Source: Sulfurovum sp.
GTDB taxonomy: Bacteria > Campylobacterota > Campylobacteria > Campylobacterales > Sulfurovaceae
Direction: 5' to 3'
Length of the DNA stretch: 64,000 nucleotides
Assembly: GCA_026990595.1 (NCBI GenBank)
Contig: JALXCZ010000001.1
Span: forward strand, 1 to 64,000
Positions 53,465-59,056 of this stretch are shown piece after piece. The notes under the pieces were generated by a model, which saw nothing but the letters and a program-made list of their open reading frames with translations, had not been told where the DNA came from and ran no database searches. The translations under genes and the position numbers were made by a program. Every line of letters starts with the position of its first letter. The first letter of the stretch is position 1.

Positions 53465-54433
53465 CTACATATCTAAAGGACTAGCCACCCTTCCCTTGTT
53501 CATCTCAGCTACCACATGGGTATAGATCATAGTCGTTTCTACTGATTTGTGTCCCAACAACTCCTGAATGCTTCTAAGATCAATACCGCTTTGCAAAAGA
53601 TGTGTAGCATAGGAGTGTCTAAATATGTGAGAAGTCACACGTTTGTGTACTTGTGCTTTTATGGCAGCCTGCTTAATGTTTCTGCCTAAAGTCTTTTCAT
53701 GAATATGATGTCGTCTTATCACTTCACTTCTAGGGTCTTTGGCTACATTTTTCATAGGGAACAAGAACTGCCATTTGGTTTCAAATTTTGCATTAGGATA
53801 TTTGCGTTCCAGTGCGTATGGCATATAGACACTTCCATATCCATCTGCTATATCTTTTTTATGAAGTTCCTCAACCACACCTGCTTGTACCTTTAGACGT
53901 TGTTTTATGACTTGTGGTAGTGGAACGGTTCTGTCTTTTAAACTCTTACTATCCCATATATAAACCTTGTCAAATCCAAAGTCTATATCTTTTATGCGTA
54001 TGCTTAAAGCTTCACTCATACGAAGTCCGCAACCGTACATAAGATATACTATAAGCTGATAGGTTCCCATAAGATTATCTATGACCTTTTTTACCTCTTC
54101 TTTGGTCAGTACCTGTGGGATGTGTTTTCTCTCTTGTGCTCTAAGTGCCTGAATGTTCCATTCACTCATATCTACCCCTAACACCTCTTTATATAAAAAG
54201 AGTAATGCAGAAAATGCTTGATTCTGTGTTGATGGAGATACTTTTCTTTCAACTGCTAGATGCGTTAAGAATGCTTCTATCTCAGGTTTTGCCATCTCTA
54301 TAGGATGTTTTTTGTTGTGGTAAAAAATGTAGTGTTTTATCCATCCGACATAAGACTTTTCAGTTTTTATACTGTAGTGCTTCACTCGTATTTTGTCACG
54401 AACGATATCGAGTAGTTTTTTCTTTATTTGCAT
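53465..54433 (-). CDS. intI: Integron integrase
   Basis: Tyrosine recombinase residues [36 protein letters not shown], plus the IntI-specific insertion [35 protein letters not shown] 54433 follows ggagg. Confidence 0.96.
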
Positions 54434-54454
54434 CTTTTCCTCCTTGTAATAGTA

Positions 54455-54690
54455 GGACAAATGTCCTCTATTGCTAGAAATCAACAATTAGAGGAACACT
54501 TTGTCCAAATAACGGCTTGTATCTGACTAAAAGGACATAAGCAATTTTTATAATTATAGGCTTTTTCAAAAGAAAGTAGTAAAAATCTTTCAAATTGTCA
54601 TATTTTTAGCGATAGCAAGACATTTTTGATATACTACTAATATGAAAAATAAGACAATAGTGGGACATTATGTTCCTCTAATAAATAGTT
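54455..54690 (+). promoter_or_regulatory. Candidate attI region with three related repeats
   Basis: Repeats at 54455-54473 (+), 54485-54506 (-) and 54663-54683 (+), sharing GGACA(N)4-5GT(T)CCTCTA. GTTGTAT core at 54688-54694 is complementary to the ATACAAC of attC1. Confidence 0.7.
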
Positions 54691-54750
54691 GTATACTCAT
54701 GAGTAATAAATATGCTAAAATAACGAAATAAATTACACACTGGAATCCAA

Positions 54751-55992
54751 ATGGAACAATTAAATGTAAAAAAGTTTTTAATTATTAAAAATTCTAAATT
54801 TGATATTGGAAGAATTAATATTATTATTGGACCACAAGCAAATGGTAAAAGTCTTTTAGTCAAGCTTTTGTATTTATTCAGAGAAACTATAAGTGAATCT
54901 TTTTTAATGTCTGTCAAAAATAATGAATTACAAAGTGCCTTTGTAAAACGTATTGAAACATCTTTTGAAAAATATTTTCCAAAATATACATGGAAAGATA
55001 AAGATATTGAAATCACTTATATTCGTGATAATATAGAAATAAAAATTATAAAAACAGCATCTCAAAGAACAATAAAAATTGAATTATCAAAATTTATTAC
55101 TACTTCTTTTACATCTCTTAAAAGTAATTATAGAAAATTTATGCGAGAGAAAGAAAAAGAAGATGAATATATATTTGATGATTTTTGGGAATTTAAAAAT
55201 CAATTTATTGATAATAATAAAGAAATGTCAAGATATTTTTCTGAATCAGTTTTTATTCCAGCAAGTAGATCTTTTTTTGCTAATTTGCAAAAAAATATTT
55301 TTTCTTTTTTAGCAGAAAATATTGATATTGATCCTTTTATGAAAGAATTTGGTTCAAAATATGAACTTGCAAAAAAGATTTATTCCGACACAAGATTTAA
55401 TGAAAATATTTTTGAAAAAAATGATTCACATATTAAAATTAAAAATATAGTTGAAAATATATTAAATGGTAAATATCAATATAAGAATAAACAAGATTGG
55501 ATTGAATCTAAAGGTGAAGAAATAAATCTGGCAAATGCTTCTTCTGGACAACAAGAGTCACTTCCTATGCTATTGATTTTATCTATTTTTCCATTTTTAA
55601 ATAAAGAAAATCAGAATATGTATTTTATTGAAGAGCCTGAAGCCCATTTATTTCCTACCTCTCAAAAACATATTATTTCTCTTATCGGTTTAATGTACAA
55701 CTACAATCAAAATAATGTAATTACAACACATAGTCCTTATATCTTAACGGCATTAAATAATTTATTATTAGCTTATGATGTAAAACATGAAAAAGGTGAA
55801 CAAGCAATAGAAAATATTATTGACAAAGAATTTTGCATAAATTATGAAGATATAAAAGCATATACTATATCTGATGGTAAACTGACTAGTATAATGGATA
55901 AAGAAGAAAGATTAATTGGCATGAATGTTATTGACTCTGTATCGGAAGACTTTAGCACTACTTTTGATTCACTTCTCGCACTACAAGATTAA
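54751..55992 (+). CDS. Integron cassette 1: OLD/AAA_15-like ABC-type ATPase
   Basis: Walker A GPQANGKSLL, signature-like ANASSGQQESLP, Walker B MYFIEEPEAHLFP, H-loop VITTHSPYIL. Confidence 0.9.
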   Translation: MEQLNVKKFLIIKNSKFDIGRINIIIGPQANGKSLLVKLLYLFRETISESFLMSVKNNELQSAFVKRIETSFEKYFPKYTWKDKDIEITYIRDNIEIKIIKTASQRTIKIELSKFITTSFTSLKSNYRKFMREKEKEDEYIFDDFWEFKNQFIDNNKEMSRYFSESVFIPASRSFFANLQKNIFSFLAENIDIDPFMKEFGSKYELAKKIYSDTRFNENIFEKNDSHIKIKNIVENILNGKYQYKNKQDWIESKGEEINLANASSGQQESLPMLLILSIFPFLNKENQNMYFIEEPEAHLFPTSQKHIISLIGLMYNYNQNNVITTHSPYILTALNNLLLAYDVKHEKGEQAIENIIDKEFCINYEDIKAYTISDGKLTSIMDKEERLIGMNVIDSVSEDFSTTFDSLLALQD

Positions 55993-55994
55993 TC

Positions 55995-56417
55995 ATGATA
56001 AATAATTGTAATACATATACTAACAACAAATTAATTTCAGTAAGTGAAAATAGAAGAATTTTCAAAATAATAAATACTTCTACTTTTTATGTTAATAAAG
56101 TTGTGGTTGATGATTGCTATATTAAAGTCGGAGAGAGATGTGATTATCTTTTTGAAATAATAAATAATAATACTGTTAAAAAAGTTTTTTATGTTGAACT
56201 CAAAGGAAGCAATATTACTCATGCAGTAGAACAATTAAAAACAACTATTACGTACTGTAAAAGTATTCATAGTGCAGCTGTGTTAAAGCAGTGTTATATT
56301 GTTGCTTCCAAATTTCCAAGTGCTGGTCCTTCCTCTCAAGCATTAAAGAAAAAGTTTAAAAGAGAAAATAAAATACAACTTTTTATAGATACCAAAATAA
56401 AAGAAATTGCTATATAA
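55995..56417 (+). CDS. Integron cassette 1: putative PD-(D/E)XK nuclease-like protein
   Basis: Starts 2 bp after the ATPase stop; ERCDYLFEI...KVFYVELKGSNITHAVEQLKTTI matches D...ExK spacing of this fold. Confidence 0.6.
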   Translation: MINNCNTYTNNKLISVSENRRIFKIINTSTFYVNKVVVDDCYIKVGERCDYLFEIINNNTVKKVFYVELKGSNITHAVEQLKTTITYCKSIHSAAVLKQCYIVASKFPSAGPSSQALKKKFKRENKIQLFIDTKIKEIAI

Positions 56418-56420
56418 AAT

Positions 56421-56488
56421 ATACAACAAAACATAGGAACACAATAAATTACCTAGCGGCAATTTATGGTTCTATTCAGTCGTTATAC
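56421..56488 (+). repeat. attC1 site
   Basis: ATACAAC...ACAATAAATTACCTAGCGGCAATTTATGGT...GTTATAC: imperfect palindrome with R''/R' boxes. Confidence 0.9.
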
Positions 56489-56546: not shown

Positions 56547-56810
56547 ATGAAATATGAATATGACAGTAACAAAAGCTTATCAAATAAGCAAAAACATGGT
56601 ATTGATTTTGAAGAAGTAAAGCTTCTTTGGGATGATGATAGAATGATTGAAATTTTAACATCTTACGAAGATGAAGAAAGATTTATCAATATTGGAAAAA
56701 TTAGTAGCAAGTTTTACACTGTTGTGACAACTATTCGTGAGAAAGAGAAGATTAGAATTATTTCTGCACGAAGAGCAAGAAAAAAGGAGATTGAACTTTA
56801 TGAAAGCTGA
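56547..56810 (+). CDS. brnT: Integron cassette 2: BrnT family toxin
   Basis: YEYDSNKSLSNKQKHGIDFEE...EERFINIGK...IRIISARRARKKEIELYE. Confidence 0.93.
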   Translation: MKYEYDSNKSLSNKQKHGIDFEEVKLLWDDDRMIEILTSYEDEERFINIGKISSKFYTVVTTIREKEKIRIISARRARKKEIELYES

Positions 56811-57045
56811 AGAATTTGATAAAATATTTGATGATAATGAAGAAGATATAATTGAATATCTTGATTTATCAACAATAAGAAGACCAAACTTAGAACCAAA
56901 AAGAATTAATATTGACTTTCCAACTTGGATGGTTAAAAAACTTGATGAAGAGGCACAACATATTGGAGTAAGTCGTCAAGCTATAATTAAAACTTGGTTA
57001 GCTGATAAACTTATGCAAAACGAACATCACAAAGTAGCTGTATAA
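56800..57045 (+). CDS. brnA: Integron cassette 2: BrnA family antitoxin
   Basis: RHH-like C-terminus KRINIDFPTWMVKKLDEEAQHIGVSRQAIIKTWLADKL; start at internal MKAEEFDK overlapping brnT. Confidence 0.9.
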   Translation: MKAEEFDKIFDDNEEDIIEYLDLSTIRRPNLEPKRINIDFPTWMVKKLDEEAQHIGVSRQAIIKTWLADKLMQNEHHKVAV

Positions 57046-57150: not shown

Positions 57151-57339
57151 ATGGTAGCCGTAAAACAAGAAGCACAAGAGATGATACAAAACCTGCCTGA
57201 TAACTGTACTTATGAAGATATTCAGTACCACCTTTATGTTGTAGAAAAAATAAAAAATGGCATTACTCGTGCAGAAAATGGTGAAGTATCATCACACCAA
57301 GATGCAAAAGCAAGAATGGCTAAATGGCTTTCAAACTAG
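57151..57339 (+). CDS. Integron cassette 3: putative antitoxin
   Basis: MVAVKQEAQEMIQNLPDNCTYEDIQYHLYVVEKIKNGITRAENGEVSSHQDAKARMAKWLSN; precedes and overlaps a ParE/RelE toxin. Confidence 0.85.
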   Translation: MVAVKQEAQEMIQNLPDNCTYEDIQYHLYVVEKIKNGITRAENGEVSSHQDAKARMAKWLSN

Positions 57340-57644
57340 CGTGGTCAGAAGAGGCACTTGAAGATATAGAATCTATCGCCACCTACATAGAAAAAGATTC
57401 CCCAACTTATGCAAAGTCAGTAGTTTCAAAGTTTTTTGAAAAAGCAGAAATCTTACAAGAATTTTCAGAACTAGGTAGAAAAGTTCCTGAGTTTAATGAC
57501 TCAACAATTCGAGAAATTTTTGTTTACAGTTACAGACTTATATATAAGCTGGAACAGCAAGATATTTTATTTGTAGCTGTAGTTCACGGTAAAAGACTTC
57601 TTGAAAATCATCATCAAAGTATAACAAATCAGAGTAGCCAATAA
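57324..57644 (+). CDS. Integron cassette 3: RelE/ParE family toxin
   Basis: LAWSEEALEDIESIATYIEKDSPTYAKSVV...LGRKVPEF...REIFVYSYRLIYKL...VAVVHGKRLL. Confidence 0.93.
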   Translation: MAFKLAWSEEALEDIESIATYIEKDSPTYAKSVVSKFFEKAEILQEFSELGRKVPEFNDSTIREIFVYSYRLIYKLEQQDILFVAVVHGKRLLENHHQSITNQSSQ

Positions 57645-57739: not shown

Positions 57740-57967
57740 ATGAAAAAAGCAATAAATATCCGTATGGATGAAACACTACTTACTGATTTAGACTCTTATG
57801 CTCAGGAACTTGAACGTTCTCGTACATATATTATTGAGAAAGCTGTAAGTACATATTTTGATACATTAGATGAAATGATTTCAGACAAAAGAATTGATGA
57901 ACTTAAAAGTGGAAAAACAGAAGTATATTCACTAGAAGAAGTGGCTAAAAAACTTGGACTTAACTAA
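57740..57967 (+). CDS. Integron cassette 4: ribbon-helix-helix antitoxin
   Basis: INIRMDETLLTDLDSYAQELERSRTYIIEKAVSTYFD. Confidence 0.9.
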   Translation: MKKAINIRMDETLLTDLDSYAQELERSRTYIIEKAVSTYFDTLDEMISDKRIDELKSGKTEVYSLEEVAKKLGLN

Positions 57968-58218
57968 TGTTTAGAGTTATAGTTCCAAAAGCTACTTTTA
58001 AAGAACTTGAAAAAATAGACTCTGTAAACCAACAACTCATATTTACAAAAATCAAAGATTTAGAAGCAGGAATTTTTACTTCAGACAAAGCTCTTAAAGG
58101 CAAACACAAAGGTAAGTTTAGAAAAAGAGCAGGAAATTATAGAATAATATATTTGAAAGAGAATGATATTTTAGTGATTACACTCATTAGAATTGCACAT
58201 AGAAAAGAAGTTTACTGA
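57967..58218 (+). CDS. Integron cassette 4: RelE family toxin
   Basis: FKELEKIDSVNQQLIFTKIKDLEAG...LKGKHKGKFRKRAGNYRIIYLKENDILVITLIRIAHRKEVY. Confidence 0.94.
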   Translation: MFRVIVPKATFKELEKIDSVNQQLIFTKIKDLEAGIFTSDKALKGKHKGKFRKRAGNYRIIYLKENDILVITLIRIAHRKEVY

Positions 58219-58220
58219 AA

Positions 58221-58288
58221 GTCTAACAAAACAGAGGAGCCAATAAATTACCTAGCGGCAATTTATCGGCTATCTTCAGTCATTGCAT
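58221..58288 (+). repeat. attC4 site
   Basis: GTCTAAC...AGCCAATAAATTACCTAGCGGCAATTTATCGGCT...ATTGCAT (R' degenerate). Confidence 0.88.
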
Positions 58289-58577
58289 GCACCCGCGGAA
58301 CGGGAGCGCACCCGTTGCAGAGTTGAACTATAACATTAAGTTCGTTTTTCTTTTTTGCAGTCCTGTCTCTTTTTTAAAAAAAAGACGCAAAAACTCAGGA
58401 AAAAAGAGAACAAACTTTCTTGAAAATTTGAATATGCCTATTTTATCAATGGGTAAATTTAATGATACTATCTTCCACGTAAAGACAATAAATAGAAAAG
58501 AGAGTCAAAGCTCGTTTAAATTTTCAAATCATCAAAAAATTTGTTATAATGGTGATAAATTAAAAAAGGTCGAAAAA

Positions 58578-58811
58578 ATGCAATTGTCAATAGATTTAAA
58601 AACTAAAGATATTATTTCATTAATTTCACAAATGTCTCTTAATGAACTTGAAAAAGTAAAAAATAGCTTAGTTGAAAGAGAGTTATATTTTAAAAAGTTT
58701 AAAAAAGACAATGTTGAAGATATTATAGATGATTTCAAAAAAGAAAATTATTCGGATGACTTTTTAACTGATTTAGAAAAAGGGTTAAAAAAGAGTTCAA
58801 TTTATAAATGA
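58578..58811 (+). CDS. Integron cassette 5: putative antitoxin
   Basis: MQLSIDLKTKDIISLISQMSLNELEKVKNSLVEREL...; ATG 58578 lies after a TTGTTATAATGG promoter-like box; overlaps the toxin gene. Confidence 0.75.
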   Translation: MQLSIDLKTKDIISLISQMSLNELEKVKNSLVERELYFKKFKKDNVEDIIDDFKKENYSDDFLTDLEKGLKKSSIYK

Positions 58812-59056
58812 AAATCAAGAGAATAAGAGATGATTTAGAGGATTATCTCAAAAAGCACAATCTTTCAAAGAAGTATGAAAAAGCAAAAAAACTTTTTGAA
58901 AATGACCCTTTTTATCCTTCCTTAAATACTGAATTATTAGAGCCAAAAGACAGATTGATTTACTCATTCAGATTGGATAAAAAATATAGAGCATTATTTA
59001 TCTACATTGGAGAAAATGAGATAGAAATCATAGCTTTTACCAACCATTATAAGTGA
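58808..59056 (+). CDS. Integron cassette 5: RelE/YafQ-like toxin
   Basis: KIKRIRDDLEDYLKKHNLSKKYEKAKKLFENDPFYPSLNTELLEPKDRLIYSFRLDKKYRALFIYIGENEIEIIAFTNHYK. Confidence 0.85.
   Translation: MKIKRIRDDLEDYLKKHNLSKKYEKAKKLFENDPFYPSLNTELLEPKDRLIYSFRLDKKYRALFIYIGENEIEIIAFTNHYK

Follow-up and report, generated by a model that had tools for sequence, protein, structure and literature searches.

An integron cassette of Sulfurovum carries an OLD-type ATPase and small nuclease-like gene pair of the WonAB / PDC-M29 class, a likely anti-phage system

We found that the first cassette of a chromosomal integron in Sulfurovum sp. holds two adjacent genes, for an ATPase (A) and a small nuclease-like protein (B). 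In our judgement this cassette quite likely encodes an anti-phage system with two components, which falls in the 'OLD-ABC ATPase + novel REase' class that includes WonAB, and the pair would work in an analogous way. A probable anti-phage role had been proposed from the letters of the DNA, and it is supported by the match of both proteins to a defence-candidate family and by their likeness to WonAB. The pair is not a new kind of system but a further example of a described class, found in an unusual vehicle; what is new is apparently its carriage as an integron cassette in Campylobacterota.

The window, that is, the whole stretch of DNA that was analysed, comprises 64,000 nt of Sulfurovum sp. 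(Campylobacterota; Campylobacteria; Campylobacterales; Sulfurovaceae), positions 1-64,000 of the forward strand of contig JALXCZ010000001.1 (assembly GCA_026990595.1). The features that matter here are the following:

53465..54487 (-), integron integrase IntI, ~339 aa; TIGR02249 integrase_gron, 415.7 bits against a cut-off of 265
54668..54690 (+), putative attI, ATGTTCC...AATAAATAGTT; segment conserved in related genomes
54689..56482 (+), integron cassette 1, ~1794 bp, holding both genes; bounded by the attI junction and the R' of the first attC (GTTATAC at 56482)
54751..55992 (+), gene A, OLD-type ABC ATPase, WonA-like / PDC-M29A, 413 aa; identified by PADLOC, Pfam and structure model
55995..56417 (+), gene B, predicted small PD-(D/E)XK-like nuclease, WonB-like / PDC-M29B, 140 aa; identified by PADLOC, alignment and structure model
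56420..56488 (+), attC closing cassette 1; core AATAAATTACCTAGCGG with terminal inverted repeat, bottom-strand hairpin

Both genes lie in the first cassette of an integron

The intI frame is intact, lies upstream of the cassette array and is divergent from it, and IntI homologues at E<=1e-40 were found in 22 of the 81 genomes of the window's family. The segment ATGTTCCTTGAATAAATAGTT is kept upstream of intI in three related genomes (L075, L077 and L079) and occurs in a variant form in a fourth (L072); beyond the GTT of the putative attI, the sequences of the related genomes diverge at once. Since the conservation beside intI stops there, we placed the attI junction at the end of AAATAGTT, and the recombination point is expected at G|TT (54688|54689). 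The array has four near-identical attC-like sites, where none is expected by chance, all of which form bottom-strand hairpins over a shared core; the bottom strand of the one that closes cassette 1 folds into a single hairpin of -22.8 kcal/mol. In the whole genome, the attC core is found at these four sites and at one more on another contig (C12, 3180-3199; L097), a lone match that is possibly a fragment of a second array or a stray cassette. Cassette 1 therefore has the attI and attC boundaries and the accompanying integrase of an integron cassette, and the earlier claim that both genes travel in a single one is borne out by IntI, by the four attC-like sites and by the attI-like segment that ends at the boundary. 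The first cassette position in an integron is normally the best expressed, so that the gene pair, standing directly after attI, would be expected to be the best expressed of this integron's cassettes.

The remaining cassettes are of another kind. Cassette 2 (56547-57045) codes for the toxin BrnT (1.6e-25) and an antitoxin like CopG/BrnA. In cassettes 3 and 4 (57151-57644 and 57740-58218) a small partner gene precedes that of a ParE-type toxin; the partner in cassette 3 (57151-57336) matched no Pfam family. Past the last attC lies another small pair (58287-59056) with a HigB/YoeB-like toxin as its last gene, for which the matches were weak, below cut-off, and which has no closing attC of the array's type.

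An OLD-type ATPase followed by a small PD-(D/E)XK-like protein

Both open reading frames agree with the sequence-only reading in their coordinates, their lengths and the 2-bp gap between them, and the motifs that it named in A and B are not due to chance, given the Pfam scores above cut-off, the conservation in alignments and the adjacency of the two genes in many phyla. Protein A has a Walker A motif GPQANGKS (K33), a signature SSGQQE (264-269), a Walker B motif FIEEPEAHLFP (E294/E295) and an H-loop TTHSP (H327), whose residues are invariant or nearly so in a 27-member alignment. It exceeds the Pfam cut-offs for AAA_15 (60.5 bits, cut-off 32.1) and AAA_21 (45.1, cut-off 27), and its profile matches include OLD, PtuA and AriA. 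The nearest structures to its model (pLDDT 88.5, pTM 0.89), by Foldseek, are the PtuA proteins of retron-Eco7 and Septu; Rad50 ranks lower. A is thus an OLD-type ABC ATPase by its Walker A, signature, Walker B and H-loop, with a fold of the PtuA/Rad50 type.

Protein B, with a calculated mass of 16.1 kDa, contains the motifs CDYLFEI (D50) and VELKG (E68, K70), and D39, C49, D50, E68, L69, K70, G71 and Q80 are invariant in a 27-member alignment. Its AlphaFold2 model is confident (pLDDT 91.5, pTM 0.87) and has a strand (51-57) after D50, a strand (60-70) that bears E68 and K70, a helix (74-88) with Q80, and then a strand (97-104) and a helix (112-125). In this model D50, E68-x-K70 and Q80 are placed as they are in PD-(D/E)XK enzymes, and the topology is PD-(D/E)XK-like. 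The structural matches are weak: the first in the PDB, by Foldseek, is EcoT38I, a restriction enzyme (E 0.03, prob 0.91, TM 0.35), and the second among viral models is annotated as a restriction endonuclease (prob 0.99, with weak scores). Such scores would fit a divergent form of this fold. The sequence profile of B found no match among solved structures, and no family of Pfam or NCBIfam was matched above cut-off, all matches being lower. Taken from the invariant D/ExK/Q pattern and the topology of the confident model, the earlier description of the partner as PD-(D/E)XK-like holds, and B can be regarded as a small downstream protein with a predicted variant of this fold. The broader picture of an OLD-like ATPase with a small nuclease-like partner is likewise supported by the AAA_15/AAA_21 matches, the PtuA-like fold of A and the model of B.

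Relationship to known defence systems

The best PADLOC matches of the two genes, which lie 2 bp apart, were PDC-M29A for A (4.4e-22) and PDC-M29B for B (5e-10), judged by E-value and not by PADLOC's own cut-offs. PDC-M29 is a computational candidate system of adjacent genes in the same size range as the window pair, and the modest score of B marks our pair as a divergent member; the name PDC-M29 was not found in the literature that we searched. The tested member of the class is WonAB, from the WASA-1 prophage of V. cholerae (records AWB73975.1 and AWB73976.1), which consists of an OLD-type ABC ATPase and a 16.1-kDa PD-(D/E)XK nuclease; the WonAB authors regard the system as a close relative of the 'OLD-ABC ATPase + novel REase' operon and point to a similarity with PD-T4-4 (PMC12137116). 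Both of its genes are required, WonB is toxic only with active WonA, residues K34, R182, E300 and H333 of WonA and K71 of WonB are essential, and its effect is that translation stops while genomic DNA stays intact (PMC12137116).

Judged by motif and spacing, the counterparts of these essential residues are K33, R173, E295 and H327 in A and K70 in B, all of them invariant or nearly so in the 27-member alignments. The A protein of Undibacterium has a numbering near-identical to that of WonA (K34, R182, E304, H337). WonAB and the window pair are alike in gene order, in the kinds of protein, in the 16.1-kDa mass of B and in near-identical essential positions, whereas WonAB is prophage-borne, with a tested activity and effect on translation, and the window pair is integron-borne, with a predicted activity. 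We infer the kinship from residue spacing, size, gene order and the description given by the WonAB authors, not from sequence alignment. The 'OLD-ABC ATPase + novel REase' operon itself goes back to Krishnan et al. 2020, which PMC12137116 and PMC12409358 both cite; in so far as these sources report it, the class is said to encompass all detected WonAB homologues, its reference pair is from Anaerovibrio (SHI83489.1 and SHI83462.1), and its two-gene layout and kinds of protein are, by description only, those of the window pair. The sequence-only reading had called the system undescribed. This did not hold, since the pair is in PADLOC as PDC-M29A/B and its class, with a tested member, is described in PMC12137116. 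A match to an already named system, which that reading had itself put forward as grounds for giving it up, turned up in part: as a candidate system (PDC-M29) and as a validated relative (WonAB).

PD-T4-4 (Vassallo et al. 2022, PMC9519451) combines an AAA_15-type ATPase with a small protein that has a CDFI...EIK...Q core. When B was compared by profile with PD-T4-4_B-like proteins of the same phylum, the D...ExK...Q core aligned exactly (probability 92%, E 7.5e-7). The B protein of PD-T4-4, of ~190 aa, is only remotely similar to window B, which did not match the PD-T4-4_B model; the PD-T4-4-like ATPases seen have SSSVRS/SSATKS where A has SSGQQE, and the window's own genome gave no match to PDLC04037. 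PD-T4-4 is best read as a more distant relative of the window pair than WonAB. Pairs of a PD-T4-4-like ATPase and a ~190-aa nuclease (L060 to L068) were seen in 9 of 299 genomes of the phylum, one of them in the window's genus.

Septu and retron PtuAB, PARIS AriAB and Gabija GajA have an OLD-like ATPase fold related to that of A, but their nucleases, whether partners or fused, are HNH or TOPRIM proteins, whereas window B is small and PD-(D/E)XK-like. B had no HNH match and no TOPRIM/DUF4435 match in PADLOC or Pfam, so it is neither the HNH partner PtuB of Septu nor the TOPRIM/DUF4435 partner AriB of PARIS, in agreement with what had been read from its motifs.

The two genes are conserved and diverge together

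A search of genome contigs with an alignment of three B sequences recovered 28 loci that span about ten phyla and include Desulfobacterales, methanotrophs, Cyanobacteria, Bacteroidota, Ignavibacteriales, Acidobacteria, Calditrichia, Cloacimonadota and Nitrospirae. A 14-member alignment proved too diverse as a query, and short peptide patterns from a single protein found no relatives in viral or genome contigs; viral contigs yielded none by alignment search either. In all 28 loci, B is directly preceded by a match to an A-type ATPase (in L033 by no more than a 54-aa fragment; in L050 it is B itself that runs off the contig), mostly at a spacing of -4 to +6 bp. The pairwise identities of A and B are strongly correlated (Mantel r 0.89, 0 of 2000 permutations). 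The PDC-M29B model recognised 20 of the 27 B sequences. In L011, L012, L026 and L027, 519-aa proteins that seemed to be fusions were rejected as chance matches; we take them to be RNase Y.

B is rare in the window's phylum, as matches were found in 12 of 398 genomes, of which those in L011 and L012 are due to chance. Across 369 genomes of the class of Undibacterium, searched for copies closer to WonAB, there were no copies beyond the starting genome and one weak match. The A protein of the window shares 48% identity with a Desulfobacterales copy but 36% with the copy in L035, a genome from the window's family; such a pattern would be expected if the genes move horizontally. Apart from one short and weak match in L044, no integrase gene was found near the other homologues, so the gene family is not generally carried by integrons.

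Of 140 proteins encoded near the homologues, a few hit restriction, GajB/Gabija, MADS or other defence models, against one match, a MotB/ZorB cross-match, among 53 control proteins. The commonest neighbour families are metabolic, and the defence families, a minority, lend weak support to a defence role of the pair. In three Methylobacter loci (L034, L036 and L042) the operon is flanked by metabolic-looking genes of like size and order, which suggests that it sits at a common chromosomal site and not in a defence island. A homologous ATPase with a small protein was also seen within a run of glycosyltransferase genes in a plasmid record of Bacteroides finegoldii (L014, 3848-5411).

Proposed mechanism and alternatives

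By analogy with WonAB, A would dimerise around two ATP sites and serve, through its ATPase cycle, as both infection sensor and gate. B, as a nuclease with D50, E68 and K70, would bind A and stay inactive until A is triggered; once activated, it would cleave an essential nucleic acid, more likely rRNA or tRNA than the chromosome if it resembles WonB. Translation and growth would then halt before phage assembly, and the infected cell would be sacrificed.

The main rival to a translation-targeting B keeps the same two-protein defence architecture and has B cut DNA, that of the phage and possibly of the host. DNA cutting has been proposed for the nucleases, HNH or TOPRIM, of Septu and Gabija; the best structural neighbours of A are the PtuA proteins of Septu and retron-Eco7, and the core of B resembles restriction endonucleases and aligns with PD-T4-4_B. 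Vassallo et al. (PMC9519451) found 11 systems that have a component for binding or cleaving DNA, and 7 of them gave direct immunity. The closest tested relative, WonB, leaves genomic DNA intact and stops translation, and we consider DNA cleavage by B rather unlikely, though to be taken seriously.

Toxin-antitoxin modules are common stabilisers of integrons, and the other cassettes of this array are such modules (BrnT/BrnA and two of ParE type), which could suggest that B is a toxin and A its antitoxin, serving cassette stability with no role in defence. However, a 413-aa ATPase that keeps all its catalytic motifs is no ordinary antitoxin, the ATPase of WonAB is needed for toxicity instead of neutralising it, and both A and B match a defence-candidate family, so that we regard this explanation as very improbable. 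A degenerate or silent passenger without function, which AT-rich and foreign-looking genes within an integron might suggest, is the least credible reading: both frames are intact, all catalytic residues are present and the first cassette is normally the best expressed.

What the finding means

The preferred reading, an ATPase-gated defence pair that acts as WonAB does, adds an integron cassette of Campylobacterota to the settings in which the WonAB / PDC-M29 class is found. A stronger version, in which the pair belongs to an integron-mobilised lineage of the class with a trigger or target unlike that of WonAB and is the first shown case of the class moving as a single cassette, seems doubtful to us. 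As the pair is conserved as a unit over about ten phyla, what was a PADLOC candidate can be treated as a family whose catalytic residues are clear. Its carriage by an integron lends further weight to the idea that anti-phage genes are stored in chromosomal integrons, an idea found in the titles of Darracq et al. and Kieffer et al., both cited in PMC13092281.
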